DNA from: Terriglobales bacterium
GTDB lineage: Bacteria > Acidobacteriota > Terriglobia > Terriglobales > Acidobacteriaceae
Direction of reading: 5' to 3'
DNA: 64,000 nt
NCBI GenBank assembly: GCA_025936825.1
Contig: JAICSO010000004.1
Span: forward strand, 62,001 to 126,000
Shown here in pieces: positions 11,677-62,669 of the stretch. The position numbers and the translations under genes were made by a program. Numbering within the stretch: position 1 is the stretch's first letter; each line of letters opens with the position of its first letter. Below the pieces are notes generated by a model. It saw nothing but the letters and a program-made list of their open reading frames with translations, ran no database searches and was not told the origin of the DNA.

Positions 11677-14061
11677 CTAAACGTGCGCGGCGGCCTGGTC
11701 GCGGCGTTTAGCCTGGATTTCGATATAGACATTCACCAGAGAGACTGCCGCGGGAGTGACTCCGGGTATGCGCGAGGCGTGGCCGAGGGTCCGGGGGCGA
11801 ATTTTAATCAGTTTCTCTTGCATCTCGCGGGAGAGTCCACTGACTGAGCGATAGTCGAACCACTCTGGAATGTTGCGCTGCTCGGCTTTTTTCAGCCGCT
11901 CGATCGCGCGCTGCTGTTGCTGGAGATAGCCTTCGTACTTGATTTCGGTCTCGACCGATTTGAGTTCGTTGCGGAGAGCTGAGGAAAGTTTGCCGTACGT
12001 CGTATATCGTACGTCGTAGGGTGAGGCAATGTCGTTGCTGGTTCGTCGTTGGTCGTTCACAAGAGCGTCGGCCACCGCAGGTCGGGCATCGGGCGCTGGA
12101 CGGGGCGGGCTCGAGTTTGTTCGTGCCGAAGCGAGTTCATCTGCCTGGGCTTCAGTCCTTGAGAAGAAATCAGGAACAATTTCTCGCAAGATCGGCACGA
12201 GGTGCTCGATCGTTATCTCCGGGCGCTTAAGCAGTTGTGCGAGCGGCTGCCCGATAGCCGACGATAGGCCGATATTCGGTTGGGAAACAGCAGGTTCCTC
12301 GACTGCGTTTCCGTTTCGCGGTTGCGAATCGGAATGCTCGCTCGGAGTGACAGACGTCAGGTCTGAAGCTGGGCTTGCGTACGACTCACGACCTACGATG
12401 TAAGACGACTCCTGCTCTGGCCCAATGCTGAGTGCTGAATGCTGAGTGCTGATGCTCCCCAGCATCTCAGCCGTCGCTCGCGTCGTCTGTAGCACTTTCT
12501 TGAGCTTCTCCTGCCGCTGTTGCTTGGCCAAGTAGTCGGCCCAGGCCTCATCCGAAATCAAGCCTACGCGGCGACCGTGTGGAGTGAGTCGCCGATCCGC
12601 GTTGTCGATGCGCAAGTGCAGCCTGAACTCTGCACGCGAAGTGAACATCCGGTAGGGCTCGTTCGTGCCTTTCGAAATCAGATCGTCAATGAGAATTGCC
12701 GTGTATCCTTCGGTCCGGTCGAGGATCAGCGGCAGCTCGCCTTTCACTTTCAACCCAGCGTTGATCCCCGCCATCAGCCCCTGGCAGGCGGCCTCTTCGT
12801 AGCCTGACGTGCCATTGATCTGACCCGCGAGGAACAGCCCGGCAATTTTCTTCGTCTCCAGCGTGCGCTCAAGTTCAGTGGGATCGATCGCATCGTATTC
12901 GATTGCGTAGCCCGGACGCAGCATTTCCGCGCTTTCGAGACCCGGCACCGACTTCAGGATCGCAAGCTGTACCTCCACGGGCAAGGACGTGCTCATTCCA
13001 TTGACATAAATCTCATGCGTCTTCAAGCCTTCGGGCTCGAGGAACAGCTGGTGTGTGGTCTTGTCCGGGAATTTGACGATCTTGTCTTCGATGGAGGGGC
13101 AGTAGCGCGGCCCAATCGACTGAATCTGCCCGCTGTACATAGGGGATCGGTGAACGTTCTCGCGGATCACGCGGTGCGTTTCTTCGGTGGTCCATGCGAT
13201 GTAGCAAGGCACCTGCGAATCGTGATGAGCCACACGGGTAGTGCGGAAACTGAATGGCGTCGGATCCGGATCGCCTGGCTGCACTTGGAACTTTGACCAG
13301 TCAATTGTGCGACCATCCAGGCGAGGTGGTGTGCCGGTCTTCAGACGGCATCCGCGCAGGCCGAGTTTCTTCAATGCTTCTCCGAGCAACACAGCCGGCG
13401 GCTCGCCGGAGCGTCCGGCAGGATATTGCTGCTCTCCGCAGTGAATCAGGCCGTTGAGGAAGGTTCCAGTGGTGATAATTACTGCCCTGGCGCCAACAGT
13501 GCGGCCGTCGCGGAGCTTGATGCCGAGGACGCGGCGTGGAAAATCGTCGTCGGCCTTCGGTCGTCGGTCGTCGGCACGTCTGTCGTTGGCAATACCGTCG
13601 TGCGTCGCACGTCGTGCGTCGTGCGAAGTCTCTTCCTGCTGATTGCTGAGTGCTGAATGCTGAGTGCTCTCAAGAATCAGCTCCGCTACTTCCGCCTGCT
13701 TGATCTTCAGGTTGGGCTGCGATTCCAACACCTCGCGCATCTTTAAGCGATAAGCCTGCTTGTCGCACTGAGCGCGCGGCGACCAGACCGCCGGACCACG
13801 GGACGTGTTGAGTAGTCGGAACTGGATTCCGACTGCATCGGTGACTTCGCCCATGATTCCGCCGAGCGCATCCACCTCGCGAACGAGATGACCTTTCGCG
13901 ATTCCCCCCACCGCGGGATTGCAGGACATCTGTGCAATCAGGTCGACGTTCAGCGTGTAGAGCGCGGTCTTCAGACCCATGCGTGCGCAGGCAACCGCGG
14001 CCTCGCAGCCGGCATGCCCGGCTCCGACTACAACTACGTCGAATTGTTCCGTGAATTGCAC
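11677..14061 (-). CDS. mnmG: tRNA uridine-5-carboxymethylaminomethyl modification enzyme MnmG with repeat-derived insertions
   Basis: MnmG (GidA) works with MnmE to modify wobble uridine 34 of certain tRNAs using FAD. The Rossmann motif [37 protein letters not shown] and [14 protein letters not shown] are intact, as is the C-terminal segment [17 protein letters not shown]. The protein is 794 residues where about 630 is usual. The excess lies in three blocks, about residues 131-172, 537-610 and 635-690, encoded partly by 7-bp word arrays otherwise found in intergenic gaps (TGCTGAG, CGTCGTG, GTCGTTG types). They yield odd peptides such as [13 protein letters not shown]. All insertions keep the frame. 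The conserved KRPEIT segment survives between the last two blocks, so the enzyme is probably functional. Confidence 0.9.
11994..12058. repeat. heptamer arrays inside mnmG (block 3)
   Basis: Units CGTACGT, CGTATAT, CGTACGT, CGTAGGG, a spacer, then GTCGTTG, CTGGTTC, GTCGTTG, GTCGTTC. These encode the low-complexity segment at about residues 668-689 of MnmG. Confidence 0.7.
12378..12453. repeat. heptamer arrays inside mnmG (block 2)
   Basis: Units CGTACGA, CTCACGA, CCTACGA, TGTAAGA, CGACTCC, then at 12426-12453 TGCTGAG, TGCTGAA, TGCTGAG, TGCTGAT. The first set is an approximate inverted partner of the CGTACGT set at 11994. Confidence 0.7.
13546..13671. repeat. heptamer arrays inside mnmG (block 1)
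   Basis: GTCGTCG-type units (13546-13580), CGTCGTG, CGTCGCA, CGTCGTG, CGTCGTG, CGAAGTC (13596-13630) and TGCTGAT, TGCTGAG, TGCTGAA, TGCTGAG, TGCTCTC (13637-13671). The last set uses the same word as 12426-12453. Confidence 0.7.
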
Positions 14062-16175: not shown

Positions 16176-16283
16176 GTCAAGGTTTCAAAGTTTCAAGGTT
16201 CCCAATGTTTCAACCTGAGTACCTAGGGCGCCGCACACAATCTTTTTGACCTTGAAACCTTTGAAACATTGAAACTTTCAGAC
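16176..16283. repeat. inverted pair of GTTTCAAG-type octamer arrays
   Basis: Left arm 16176-16215 carries AAGGTTTC, AAAGTTTC, AAGGTTCC and AATGTTTC; right arm 16248-16283 carries TTGAAACC, TTTGAAAC, ATTGAAAC. About 30 bp separate the arms. The pair sits between the ChaN-like gene and ubiX, and the same word occurs at 50033-50107. Confidence 0.7.
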
Positions 16284-31039: not shown

Positions 31040-31510
31040 TCACCTTCGTCGAGAAGACGCTTGGTCAAGAAGACGCGGAAGATCCGATAACTTTTCGCAA
31101 TCTGAGAACCTACCTTCTTGCGAAGTACCCGTTATAACCAACGCTCTTAAATGCGGGGATCCGGCGATTCCCTTCTTCGTGGTGCCCACGTCGATGAGGC
31201 CCCACCCTCCAGCATCGCCCGCCTTGCCGTGCCGTCGAAACCAGAACTTCGCGCACAGCGGCCAATCCCGAACCAGATCGTCTGGTGGTTTGAGATCACA
31301 GTCGCTTGGTGCCCACCGCACCGTCATCACGTGTGCAGGACCCGAGCGTAGCCACTCGTCCAGGCGCTGGTGAGAGAGGGTGGGGTCGAGCGCAGTGACA
31401 TCCAGCGCTTTGGCGTAAAGAACCACACCGCGGCTCGTATAAGACTGTCCCACGGCGCTCCAAGGGAGGACCGCAATGAATAACAGAGCAGGTAAATGGG
31501 CAACCTTCAT
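31040..31510 (-). CDS. hypothetical exported protein
   Basis: 156 residues from ATG 31510, with a clear signal peptide (MKVAHLPALLFIAVLPWSAV). The mature part has DEWLRSGPAHVMTVRWAPSD and two cysteines but no motif I recognise. It lies between dcd and the APC permease on the same strand, 67 and 25 bp apart, so cotranscription is possible. Confidence 0.6.
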   Translation of the reverse strand: MKVAHLPALLFIAVLPWSAVGQSYTSRGVVLYAKALDVTALDPTLSHQRLDEWLRSGPAHVMTVRWAPSDCDLKPPDDLVRDWPLCAKFWFRRHGKAGDAGGWGLIDVGTTKKGIAGSPHLRALVITGTSQEGRFSDCEKLSDLPRLLDQASSRRR

Positions 31511-31577
31511 CTGCGCGTATTCCGTTACTACTTGCGCCCAGAGCCGAGGACCACGGGCCAACTACCCGACGACGGCT

Positions 31578-32129
31578 TCACAGCTTCGGCAGCACGATCC
31601 CCTTCTGCGCCTGATATTTTCCCTTGCGATCCGCGTAGCTGGTTTCGCAGATCTCGTCCGACTGGAAGAAAATAATCTGGCACAGGCCTTCGTTGGCGTA
31701 GATCTTGGCCGGAAGCGGCGTGGTGTTTGAAATCTCCAGCGTGACAAAGCCTTCCCACTCGGGCTCGAAGGGCGTGACATTCACGATGATCCCGCACCGC
31801 GCGTAGGTTGATTTGCCAACGCAAATGGTCAGAATACTGCGTGGAATCTTGAAGTATTCGACCGACCGCGCCAGCGCGAATGAATTCGGGGGCACAATGC
31901 AGACGTCCGAAGTGATATTTACAAACGAGCGCTCGTCGAATTTCTTGGGATCAACAGTTGTCGAATTGACGTTCGTGAAAATCTTGAACTCGTCAGCCAC
32001 ACGCAGGTCGTAGCCATAAGAAGACAGGCCGTAGGAAATCACGCCCTCGCGCACCTGCTTCTCAGAAAAAGGATTGATCATGCCCTGCTCGAGGGCCATT
32101 TTGCGTATCCAGCGGTCACTCTTCAGCAT
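31578..32129 (-). CDS. dcd: dCTP deaminase
   Basis: 183 residues, the usual length. [50 protein letters not shown] and [19 protein letters not shown] cover the trimeric Dcd/dUTPase fold, including the S-x-AR-G active site and catalytic Glu in the FEPEWEG loop. It makes dUTP from dCTP for thymidylate synthesis (or dUMP if bifunctional, which the motif alone does not decide). It lies 16 bp from the octamer array of the four-helix-bundle gene. Confidence 0.93.
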
Positions 32130-32144
32130 GGAACTCCTTGGGGA

Positions 32145-32176
32145 ATTGAGTCATTGAGACATTGAATCATTGAGTC
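32145..32176. repeat. octamer array ATTGAGTC x4, left arm
   Basis: ATTGAGTC, ATTGAGAC, ATTGAATC, ATTGAGTC in exact 8-bp register. The TGA stop of the four-helix-bundle gene is inside it. Confidence 0.8.
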
Positions 32177-32559
32177 TGAAAACCTTGCTTCGAGGTTCGG
32201 AGTGACGCTCCGAAAACTGCTAATAATTCATTTGCTTCTTTCAGGAGATCATTGGTGCGATCCGCGCTTAGGACCCCCGTTTCGATCAACAGTTCGAGCC
32301 AGAAAACGGTTTCGTCAGCTTCCTCCAGTACAACTCCGAGCCTTGAAACAAACTCTGCTTTGGATCGCGCGCGGCATACCGCCCGGTAATTCGCGGCGAC
32401 CGATGTGCCAGAACGAAGGACCTGTTTCCCGAGCGTCTGCGCGTCCGGGGTGTGCGGCAATGAACGGTAGAGCTTCACCACCCGAATGGCAAACTCTTTC
32501 GTTCGCTGTTTGAGCTCAGCCGCCTTCTGCAGAGAATTTGGCACGCGGAGGGGTTCCAA
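32167..32559 (-). CDS. four-helix-bundle (S23/IVP-type) protein flanked by inverted octamer arrays
   Basis: 130 residues of the four-helix-bundle family also found inside 23S rRNA intervening sequences and related to DGR accessory Avd proteins. KEFAIRVVKLYRSLPHTPDA, GKQVLRSGTSVAANYRAVCR, AEFVSRLGVVLEEADETVFW and LLKEANELLAVFGASLRT cover all four helices. The start is probably TTG 32559; a GTG six codons later is possible. The start touches the right octamer array (32561-32608), and the stop lies inside the left one (32145-32176). That places the whole gene in the loop of a potential hairpin, as in rRNA intervening sequences. Function of free-standing members is unknown. Confidence 0.8.
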   Translation of the reverse strand: MEPLRVPNSLQKAAELKQRTKEFAIRVVKLYRSLPHTPDAQTLGKQVLRSGTSVAANYRAVCRARSKAEFVSRLGVVLEEADETVFWLELLIETGVLSADRTNDLLKEANELLAVFGASLRTSKQGFQTQ

Positions 32560-32560
32560 T

Positions 32561-32608
32561 GACTCAATGCCTCAATGACTCAATGCCTCAATGATTCAAT
32601 GACTCAAT
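32561..32608. repeat. octamer array GACTCAAT x6, right arm
   Basis: GACTCAAT, GCCTCAAT, GACTCAAT, GCCTCAAT, GATTCAAT, GACTCAAT. GACTCAAT is the exact reverse complement of ATTGAGTC in the left arm at 32145. Confidence 0.8.
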
Positions 32609-32725
32609 CTGCTTTGGCTGGAACCAGAATCTTACGGGATACTGGCAGGCGTTGACAATCTGGATTATGTTCCTTAGCATCAAGCACTTGAAGCTGTTCC
32701 AACTTTTCCACGCGGCGAGGCGGAC

Positions 32726-32995
32726 GTGATCAAGCTCGACATCATCAACGAAGTGGTCAACCGGACGGGCATCACCAAGACCAAGGCAGAAATGGCGGTT
32801 GAAACCGTCTTCGAAAGCATGAAGCGCTCGCTGGCAAAGGGCGACCGCATCGAGTTGCGCGGCTTCGGAGTGTTCAACGTGCGCCCGCGCAAGACCGGCA
32901 TCGGACGCAACCCTCGCACCGGCGCCGAAGTGTCCATTCCTCCCGGCAAGGCCGTGCGGTTCAAACCTGGCAAAGAGCTCCAGTCGATCGAGTAG
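32726..32995 (+). CDS. HU/IHF-family DNA-binding protein
   Basis: 89 residues. KGDRIELRGFGVFNVRPRKT followed by GRNPRTGAEVSIPPGKAVRF is the DNA-binding beta arm of the HU/IHF family; the RNPRTG tip with the intercalating proline is intact. VNRTGITKTKAEMAVETVFE is the N-terminal helical dimer region. The arm sequence leans to IHF-like rather than HU, but this is uncertain. Starts at GTG 32726. Its TAG overlaps the next gene's GTG by one base. Confidence 0.9.
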   Translation: MIKLDIINEVVNRTGITKTKAEMAVETVFESMKRSLAKGDRIELRGFGVFNVRPRKTGIGRNPRTGAEVSIPPGKAVRFKPGKELQSIE

Positions 32996-33558
32996 TGACT
33001 CCCGCCGACCAGACCGCGTTCGACCTGACAAACAAACTCGTGGCTGGTGAAGACGGTGAGGTGTCATCGCACCTCGCCATGTTGCTGGAGAAGTCCTCCC
33101 CGTTAGCTGACAGCGAGGAGCACTATCGCTGCATTTTGCCCCCAGAACTCGCTGGTCTCACCTTTTCCGCGGAGACTAGAGACCAGATTATCGCGATTCT
33201 TTGCGCGGAGATCTTACGTAATCCCAAAGAGTCCCTGATCGCAGCGATTTCGTTCACAGGAGCGGATTCGGCAATCAAGACCGCCGTGAAAATTCTAATC
33301 ACGCCGCCGCGTATGCTTACCCTCGGCGAAATCTGGGGAGCATTGTCTCTCGTGACGAAGTTCCTTCCGTATCGTCTGAGTGACGACGTAGAATTCCTGT
33401 CAAAAACTGAGTTGGAAAGGCTGATTCAAAGAGTAAGGGAACTTAAGAGTATCGAAGAAGGTGGAGCAGGAGAGGAGAGATCCGCGCGAGTCGGCATCAA
33501 AGTGCATGCTGCCGAGTTCCTGAGAAGCCTTAGCTTATATGGAATAGTCGTAGTCTAA
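32995..33558 (+). CDS. hypothetical protein coupled to the HU/IHF gene
   Basis: 187 residues. The GTG start shares one base with the stop of the HU/IHF-like gene (TAGTG), a classical reinitiation arrangement. The sequence is mostly helical with no transmembrane segment or known motif; RDQIIAILCAEILRNPKESL and SKTELERLIQRVRELKSIEE are the clearest segments. The coupling suggests expression with, and perhaps a partner role for, the nucleoid protein, which is inference. Confidence 0.6.
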   Translation: MTPADQTAFDLTNKLVAGEDGEVSSHLAMLLEKSSPLADSEEHYRCILPPELAGLTFSAETRDQIIAILCAEILRNPKESLIAAISFTGADSAIKTAVKILITPPRMLTLGEIWGALSLVTKFLPYRLSDDVEFLSKTELERLIQRVRELKSIEEGGAGEERSARVGIKVHAAEFLRSLSLYGIVVV

Positions 33559-33566
33559 AGATCGCA

Positions 33567-33629
33567 GCTCGTGGCTCACCGCTCATCGCTCACCGCTCAT
33601 CGCTCACTGCTCACTGCTCACTGCTCCCA
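33567..33629. repeat. heptamer array GCTCACC x9
   Basis: Nine consecutive 7-bp units: GCTCGTG, GCTCACC, GCTCATC, GCTCACC, GCTCATC, then three GCTCACT and GCTCCCA. It fills most of the gap between the hypothetical gene and the M50 protease. No reverse-complement arm is seen nearby. Confidence 0.8.
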
Positions 33630-47321: not shown

Positions 47322-47484
47322 TGGCTAGTAAGAACAACACGGGAAGTCGTCCACAAACTCCGGACTGGACCTTTCAGAATGACCTTGGTTTTGGCTTAGG
47401 GTGCTTTTGGAGTTTGGGGAATACGCACCCCAACGAGTTCGGGTTTTAACTAGCCACTAATCACTAGCCACTAGCCACTGCTCC
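47319..47484. repeat. CTAGCCA heptamer array with inverted left half
   Basis: TGGCTAG at 47322-47328 faces CTAGCCA, CTAATCA, CTAGCCA, CTAGCCA, CTGCTCC at 47450-47484. The loop is about 120 bp and contains no gene. Confidence 0.65.
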
Positions 47485-48095: not shown

Positions 48096-48133
48096 GGATC
48101 GGCTCCGGCTTGATTTAGAAACGAAGCTTAGAT

Positions 48134-48213
48134 GTTAGCTTTTAGCTCTTAGCCTTTAGCTTGAACCAAAACCGTTTTAGCTAAAAGCTGAGAGCTAATG
48201 GCTAAGAGCTATT
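48134..48213. repeat. inverted pair of TTTAGCT/AGCTAAA heptamer arrays
   Basis: GTTAGCT, TTTAGCT, CTTAGCC, TTTAGCT (48134-48161) face AGCTAAA, AGCTGAG, AGCTAAT, GGCTAAG, AGCTATT (48179-48213). The rpoN stop codon lies inside the right arm. Same word at 10441. Confidence 0.8.
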
Positions 48214-50032: not shown

Positions 50033-50107
50033 GTTTCAAGGTTTCAAGGTTTCAATGTTTCGATGGTAAGGGTCGGAAACCCTGAAACCTTCGAAACTTT
50101 GAAACCT
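50033..50107. repeat. inverted pair of GTTTCAAG octamer arrays
   Basis: GTTTCAAG, GTTTCAAG, GTTTCAAT, GTTTCGAT (50033-50064) face GAAACCCT, GAAACCTT, CGAAACTT, TGAAACCT (50076-50107). It occupies the whole gap between lptB stop and rpoN start. Confidence 0.82.
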
Positions 50108-61681: not shown

Positions 61682-62669
61682 CTCAAGATTTCACCGCAGA
61701 GAAAAACAACTTCTCTTCCGCGGATTCACACGGATCAACGCGGATCAAGAACAGAACCCGACGACACTCGGTTGGCGGAATTCCCCTACGCGATCGCGTT
61801 GTGCTCAGCAGCGAAGGTACGACCAAAAAAATCAATCGCGGAGATCGCAGAGTTCGCAGAGAAAGGCAACTTCTTCGCCGAGGATTCGCACGGGTCAACG
61901 CGGATCAAGAACAGAACCCGACGACACTCGGTTGGCGAATTCCTCTCCGCGATCGCGTTGTGCTCAGCAGCGAAGGCGCGACCAAAAAAATCAACCGCGG
62001 AGATCGCTGAGTTCGCAGAGAAAGGCAACTTTTCTTCCGCGGATTCCCACGGATCAACGCGGATCAAGAACAGAACCCGACGACACTCGGTTGGCGAATT
62101 CCTCTCCGCGATAGCGTTGTAGTCAGCAGCGAAGGTACTACCGAAAAAACATCGCTGGCTTCGCAGAGAAAAAGCACCTTCTGTTCCGCGGATCACACGG
62201 ATCTACGCGGATCGAAAAGCAGCTTTGGCGGCGATAATGTAGAAAGCTTTACAGCCGAGTGCGGCGAGAAGCCTCAGATATTTTTGGGTCTTCTTCTCTG
62301 CGTTATCGGCGTGCTCTGCCGTTCAAGGTTTTCCGCGTTTCGCAGATCATGACCGTTGCCCTTGCCGTTTTTCGTAACTATGACCGAACAAGTTTGCCGT
62401 TTTTTGACCTTGGCAATCCAGTCACCGCGAACAAGCCTCGTACACCCTCCGTCGTTCGTACTGATTCCAAAGCAGATGTAGAGTGGCAGCTTTGTAGCTG
62501 GATGCGGCATCTCAGATGCAAGTAAATAGAACGTCGGAAGTTGCAGTAACCGGCGGTAACCAGCAGGCGGTCATTTTCGGGAATCCGGAAGTAACCGAAA
62601 AAAAAGCACTTTTGAGCTTGGATTTTTAAGCTCTTCGCTTACAATAACCTCCTGCTGTGTAGAACAAAA
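61682..62669. other. gene-free gap dominated by tandem repeat
   Basis: Almost 1 kb without a convincing gene. It holds the 159-bp tandem repeat (61696-62215) and, at about 62282-62350, CTTCTCTGCGTTATC and TGCTCTGCCGTTC, an inverted-word counterpart of the CGCAGAGTT words in the tandem repeat. Confidence 0.6.
61696..62215. repeat. tandem repeat of about 159 bp, 3.3 copies
   Basis: Copies begin with GCAGAGAAA at 61696, 61856, 62015 and (partial) 62163. Each contains CGCGGATCAAGAACAG, then ACCCGACGACACTCGG and a run of A's after GACC. Within each unit, 9-bp words such as GCAGAGTTC/GCAGAGAAA recur. Confidence 0.85.

Follow-up and report, generated by a model that had tools for sequence, protein, structure and literature searches.

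An S23-family gene enclosed by inverted arrays of short words in a Terriglobales bacterium, a probable copy of a widespread portable unit

The window analyzed here is a 64,000-nucleotide stretch of a Terriglobales bacterium assembly (GCA_025936825.1; contig JAICSO010000004.1, positions 62,001 to 126,000). It contains a small gene of the S23 type, which lies between the genes for a dCTP deaminase (dcd) and an HU/IHF-type DNA-binding protein and is enclosed by two arrays of an 8-nt word (Table 1). The left array is the downstream arm of this minus-strand gene and starts 15 nt from the dcd start, and the right array is its upstream arm. TRF resolves both with a period of 8, with 4.0 copies and 83% matches on the left and 6.5 copies and 86% matches on the right. 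An earlier note on this DNA, made from the sequence alone, had described the arrays as exact inverted words. The words themselves are exact, ATTGAGTC being the reverse complement of GACTCAAT, but the units are imperfect; by eye, the exact word is present in two of the four units on the left and in three of the six on the right, and the variant units are ATTGAGAC and ATTGAATC, and GCCTCAAT and GATTCAAT. The note had also placed the stop codon inside one array and the start codon in contact with the other. The stop codon (plus-strand positions 32167-32169) does lie within the left array, whereas contact at the start holds only if the TTG at 32559 is the true one, because residues 1 to 8 of the protein model have pLDDT values below 50 and an alternative GTG lies five codons inward.

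Table 1. Positions of the S23 unit, its neighbors, and other word arrays and hairpins in the window
Feature	Coordinates	Strand	Basis
Left arm, 4 units of the 8-nt word ATTGAGTC and variants	32145..32176		TRF and flank comparison
S23-type four-helix-bundle gene, 130 codons from TTG 32559, 393 nt	32167..32559	-	PF05635, TIGR02436, model
Right arm, 6.5 units of GACTCAAT and variants	32557..32608		TRF and flank comparison
Neighboring dCTP deaminase gene (dcd)	31578..32129	-	TIGR02274, 166.2 bits
Neighboring HU/IHF-type DNA-binding protein gene	32726..32995	+	PF00216, 101.5 bits
Gene-less hairpin, 8-nt GGTTTCAA-type words, loop 49 nt	16177..16272		Hairpin search
Gene-less hairpin, 7-nt TTAGCTT-type words, loop 19 nt	48129..48211		Hairpin search
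Gene-less hairpin, 8-nt GGTTTCAA-type words, loop 14 nt	50033..50105		Hairpin search
TGCTGAG arrays in ORF 11677-14061	12424-12456, 13637-13668		TRF
GTCGTCG-type arrays in ORF 11677-14061	12031-12058, 13546-13625		TRF

The encoded protein scores 63.8 bits against PF05635 (cut-off, 33.8) and 85.9 bits against TIGR02436 (cut-off, 24), which define the four-helix-bundle "S23" family, named after 23S rRNA intervening sequences (IVS). Its AlphaFold2 monomer model consists of four helices, with a mean pLDDT of 89.1. The nearest solved structure is 2rld (E value of 2e-6; TM score of 0.75 to 0.79 by query), and a second S23 family structure, 2gsc, matches with a TM score of about 0.7; the paper on the latter is said to describe it in its title as five four-helix bundles. 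We know of no catalytic site in S23 proteins. In the six pairs of S23 genes compared, dS is saturated throughout and dN is 0.21 to 0.57, values that are consistent with constraint on the protein. Avd and the ribonucleoprotein of diversity-generating retroelements (DGRs) (4dwl and 8ub7) are also among the fold matches (E values of 0.07 to 0.08), and a Pfam kinship of Avd and S23 is given in the available part of a published account (PMC10053308).

The flanks of the window gene match each other in inverted orientation with a score of 54, whereas the direct orientation gives 16 and none of 200 shuffles exceeds 27. Both this comparison and RNA folding place the gene in the loop of a stem formed by terminal inverted repeats. 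The earlier note likened this arrangement to an rRNA IVS standing outside rRNA. An Rfam search of positions 31500-33200 gave no match, so that the unit lies outside any 23S rRNA gene, and no rRNA was present around 20 other S23 loci scanned; the gene-in-stem layout outside rRNA is thus confirmed. The arms might nevertheless function as RNA, in the manner of those in 23S rRNA: a long transcript stem would be cut by RNase III, and the insert would be tolerated in operons. The 486-nt window transcript folds with its arms as a long stem (RNA z score of -3.4), so an RNA role is possible; some S23 units lie inside operons, and the accessible text on the Coxiella IVS reports that its 28-bp stem is cut by RNase III in vitro (PMC4990558). 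However, the window stem also forms in a DNA model (z score of -4.1), and arm mismatches bring no excess of G.U pairs in coding-strand RNA (112 versus 134; P = 0.18), a result that gives no sign of selection for an RNA stem but does not disprove it. Taken together, we consider arms that work as RNA to be rather unlikely.

The 6.54-Mb assembly contains eight PF05635 matches. For each of these genes, about 350 nt of upstream flank was compared with the reverse-complemented downstream flank of similar length, with 200 shuffles per gene. All eight have inverted arms, with scores of 30 to 60, against at most 29 for the shuffles and at most 23 in direct orientation. No one terminal-inverted-repeat sequence is common to the eight loci; each arm matches its own partner only, except in one pair of loci with related words. 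A wider test used 400-nt flanks and a threshold score of 30. In 864 kb of the same genome, the threshold was reached by five of five S23 genes, by 15 of 729 other genes, and by 4 of 124 size-matched others; the 729 controls are script-called ORFs, and some of the 15 positives score through ordinary dispersed repeats. By Fisher's test against the 15 of 729, the P value is 9e-9 for five of five and 2e-13 for eight of eight. Word arrays would have to be common enough to flank any gene for this to be a coincidence, and 63 strong arrays are indeed present in the 864 kb; yet the rarity of arms around the controls, the fidelity of each arm to its own partner, and the recurrence of the pattern in other phyla make such an explanation barely credible.

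Across the genus, the phylum, a GTDB scan, and viral contigs, inverted arms were found at 124 of 141 tested nonredundant S23 loci, compared with 6 of 2,820 dinucleotide shuffles and 9 of 141 comparisons in direct orientation (the 141 leave out 12 near-duplicates and 2 contig-edge loci, and L024 and L026, the second halves of split genes, were also kept out of the counts). The positives comprise 21 of 23 loci in the genus, 26 of 28 in the phylum, 13 of 16 on viral contigs, and 64 of 74 in the GTDB scan. The phylum test rests on 29 fetched loci, one per genome, from 78 genomes with a match, and the GTDB set consists of the best 80 of at least 481 relatives and is biased to Acidobacteria. According to their record titles, the arm-positive GTDB loci belong to Acidobacteria, Delta- and Betaproteobacteria, Planctomycetes, Chloroflexi, and Hydrogenedentota; Chlorobiota and a Lyngbya are weakly positive, and an Opitutia locus fails. 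The phage collection gave no match. On plasmids, 17 of 20 S23 genes reach 30, one scores 29, and two fail; these are 20 of 30 records, 17 of them cyanobacterial and one each from Gemmatirosa, Azospirillum, and Riemerella. In two genomes rich in PF05635 (G140 and G148), 17 of 28 matches reach the threshold, and the 11 failures include 8 matches under 85 bits and 3 over 100 bits. Two weak armless matches, L257 in G140 and L251 in G148, are 90% identical to each other over the matched part and are perhaps a resident, nonmobile S23 relative. An S23 gene between inverted word arms is close to a rule. The earlier note had asked for flanking arrays around homologues and held their consistent lack to be fatal to its reading; most homologues carry them.

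Arms match within a locus and differ between loci. The two arms of a locus are 89% identical, with a median aligned length of 32 nt, and the period among the 124 positive loci is 7 in 110, 8 in 11, 6 in 2, and 9 in 1. The strand reading into the loop is over half G+T in 105 of the 124; the significance of sign tests on the words is overstated, because the loci have common ancestry and related loci use related words. After rotation, the heptamers have a core of G (61%), T (50%), C or T (86%), A (78%) or G (18%), G (97%), T (60%), and any base, in which the dinucleotide RG is near-invariant. The core holds 4.38 bits of information, versus at most 3.11 bits in 20 random sets of the same composition, with 10 restarts for the random sets and 30 for the real one. 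The idea that words are selected because a period of 7 or 8 brings stop codons into every frame was rejected as a general rule, since stops occur in 45 of 110 heptamers on the ascending strand and 44 of 110 on the descending strand.

Word hairpins are also found without a gene. Those of the window are listed in Table 1, and 864 kb of its genome contain 46 word hairpins with loops of up to 1,500 nt, of which 36 have loops of up to 200 nt and six have loops of 350 to 600 nt. Five of these six loops hold S23, and the six-frame translation of the sixth (C34:219132), inspected by eye, has no S23-like stretch. A second count with loops of up to 250 nt gave 39 hairpins with the same polarity as the S23 arms: 27 have more than half G+T, 26 carry AG in their ascending unit, and 8 carry it in their descending unit. 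Dependence of hairpin density on the presence of S23 was considered and found weak. Samples of the S23-free genomes G090, G154, G040, and G008 (320 kb) and of G060 (one weak match; 100 kb) yielded a poly-G artifact as the sole hit, and samples of G031 and G016 yielded two and three hairpins, respectively, but 100 kb each of the S23-bearing genomes G017, G116, G118 (10 S23 genes), G130, and G122 were free of hairpins.

Other arrays in this genome are arranged differently. At C140:939300-942315 (L001), a nested hairpin has outer ATTGAATC-type arrays that enclose inner GTGAGC-type ones, with no S23. In the window, the TRF arrays at 33574-33626 (GCTCACC) and 47449-47479 (ACTAGCC) have no inverted partner by the hairpin search, and at positions 61695-62149 a 159-nt unit with short words of the CGCGGATCA type in it is repeated in tandem 2.9 times. 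A 794-codon ORF on the minus strand (11677-14061), presumably MnmG/GidA, keeps its frame through several word arrays, which shows that such arrays also occur inside coding sequence.

The site of the window unit was compared among relatives, in which the earlier note had proposed to see whether it is empty. At the corresponding dcd/HU-type site, none of six congeners has S23, so the gene is not found there without its arrays either; the site, however, is not always bare. By eye, four of the six congeners have a gene-less short-loop word hairpin, with AATTTGGT-type words in two, TTAGCT-type words in one, and GTGAGC-type words in one; a fifth has a decayed hairpin, and the sixth has none. At the mlaE site, which carries S23 in the window genome, one congener has a hairpin built from another word and enclosing no gene, and two have no word hairpin, the remaining congeners being cut off or in another context. 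Given the four congener hairpins, the window site alone cannot separate insertion of a whole unit from entry of the gene into an existing hairpin. In the latter case, word hairpins would be independent of S23, born by slippage or separately mobile, and would persist at certain sites, where S23 would enter or be captured by a loop already present, much as rRNA IVS occupy the loops of helices. The hairpins at the dcd and mlaE sites fit this explanation, as does the ratio of 36 gene-less to 5 S23 hairpins in the 864 kb.

Sites without S23 in other bacteria point the other way. In Nostoc sp. ATCC 53789, the plasmids pNsp_a and pNsp_c carry paralogous operons with flanks that are 91 to 98% identical. 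In pNsp_a, the 441-nt and 288-nt genes are separated by an S23 unit with AGTCAGA-type words, and in pNsp_c a different S23 unit, with GGGAAAA-type words, separates the 288-nt gene from the 1,542-nt gene; the reciprocal sites have neither gene nor arms, and the genes there are about 3 nt apart. A possible 5-nt target-site duplication in pNsp_a is indistinguishable from a degenerate word. Similarly, S23 units lie between cas6 and cas4 in the type I-D CRISPR operons of Anabaena sp. 90 (L206) and Pseudanabaena galeata (L260), in both of which the cas6 stop codon is inside a word array, and the S23-free gaps measure about 23 nt in Nostoc UHCC 0302 and about 36 nt in Pseudanabaena ABRG5-3. Dolichospermum UHCC 0315A, which is 99.4% identical to Anabaena sp. 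90 over the aligning 60%, has a different inverted-repeat insert exactly at cas6-cas4, a gene-less one of about 230 nt with TTGGGTT-type inverted ends (L258, about 735-958). Because neither the Nostoc ATCC 53789 sites nor the cas6-cas4 gaps have word arms, prior residence of the hairpin is in our opinion unlikely. With arms at most loci, and with related-flank sites that lack both gene and arms, the portable unit that the earlier note proposed is supported; the empty sites come from plasmid relatives and not from the window copy. No near-identical S23 copies are present within G140 or within G148, so no recent transposition was caught there.

A further S23 unit lies between cas10 and cmr3 in Picosynechococcus PCC 7003 (L209), and S23 inserts in cas operons might inflate CRISPR-association signals; in PMC10910872, the legend of a figure on genes linked to CRISPR includes the 23S rRNA IVP.

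Where a unit is retained, its words change. At the dprA-topA site, S23 is kept in four genomes. Its arms have GAGC-type words in two of them and TTAGCT-type words in the other two, of which one has a split S23 gene; two other congeners have another gene context and no S23. In the window genome, TAGC-type units of the dprA-topA arm run into GAGC-type ones, as if word drift were under way. Together with the dcd and mlaE sites, this means that words at the same site differ between species, with or without the gene. The units of Trichormus variabilis and Scytonema are nearly identical and differ by 14 nt, or two heptads, in one arm only; one arm can gain or lose whole heptads independently of the other.

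The fold kinship with Avd raises a further alternative, in which the units would be retroelements moved in trans by a reverse transcriptase, with S23 as an Avd-like partner. RVT_1 is matched in 35 of 78 S23 genomes and in 17 of 71 genomes without S23 (P = 0.01, uncorrected for descent), which agrees with such a partnership. By the same distribution, a reverse transcriptase is not required, because 43 of the 78 S23 genomes in the sample have no RVT_1 match, and no reverse transcriptase is present in the annotated plasmid neighborhoods of S23 units. We therefore regard a retroelement origin as very improbable.

On balance, positions 32145-32608 are probably a single copy of a portable unit that is widespread and consists of an S23 gene within inverted arrays of 7- or 8-nt words. 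Such a unit would spread by a route that recognizes the format of its ends and not a fixed end sequence, the format being a hairpin or cruciform in which RG recurs every 7 nt along the strand reading into the loop. Recognition by format would leave each copy free to have a word of its own. Words would then drift through slippage of units, and the two arms would be kept alike by template switching or by conversion within the hairpin. The S23 protein, a predicted fold relative of Avd, is the most likely binder of the arms; since S23 is common to the units and 2gsc reportedly forms five bundles, a ring that binds the repeated RG core would be its simplest role. Carried further, S23 units could be a mobile class with format-defined ends, for which an inverted RG heptamer of about three to seven repeats suffices, with any letters at its other positions, and in which an S23 ring reads one RG per 7 nt. 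Many orphan heptamer repeats (TAACTGA, GGGAATC, STRR, and the word hairpins described here) would be solo arms or gene-less offspring, and rRNA IVS would be copies that landed in rRNA. This extension is offered tentatively, as a possibility that we consider less likely than not.

Several known systems resemble these units in part. The S23 model shares its four-helix fold with Avd of DGRs, but, unlike in a DGR, no reverse transcriptase accompanies the window unit; the single RVT_1 match of the genome is on contig C12, and the window is on C68. In RAYT/REPIN systems, a gene between inverted repeats and many gene-less hairpins occur in the same genome, and RAYTs are transposase-like and have a conserved REP sequence. 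The S23 gene in its inverted repeats, with many gene-less hairpins around the genome, is similar, and these hairpins may stand to the unit, as its short relatives, in the way that REPINs stand to RAYT genes; in contrast, S23 has no catalytic site that we know of, and the sequence of its arms varies freely outside the RG core.

The accessible text on the Coxiella 23S rRNA IVS describes a gene of the same protein family in a loop between inverted repeats of about 30 nt, with S23 genes of such IVS sitting in stems and a mobile origin proposed (PMC4990558). Window-type units differ in that they are not in rRNA, their arms are locus-specific word arrays, and gene-less forms are scattered genome-wide. 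Bacterial heptamer repeats, such as GGGAATC in Xanthomonas, GGGGA(C/T)T in Nostoc, TAACTGA in Beggiatoaceae and cyanobacteria, and STRR, are likewise tandem 7-nt words; in the available portions of their accounts, which do not name an S23 gene, they are mostly intergenic, with 70 to 75 inverted pairs in two Xanthomonas genomes, and an unknown repeat-binding mobile protein has been suggested for TAACTGA (PMC4692102, PMC4679880). Unlike those repeats, S23 words form inverted pairs on either side of S23 genes and change between loci. In a literature search that left most subscription journals outside, no report joining S23 genes and heptamer repeats was found. S23 genes in rRNA stems and heptamer repeats are each known; what appears to be new is their joining at most of the S23 loci tested. 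The rRNA IVS has been a protein without a known function and the heptamer repeats have been repeats without a known protein, and the counts presented here join the two puzzles. They point to a small mobile unit, so far overlooked, as the source of some of the bacterial DNA repeats that have lacked an explanation. If this is true, the heptamer repeats gain a candidate protein, new copies settle in short intergenic gaps, including those inside cas operons, and the question becomes a sharp one of how the two arms of an element stay alike while its end sequence varies freely between copies.
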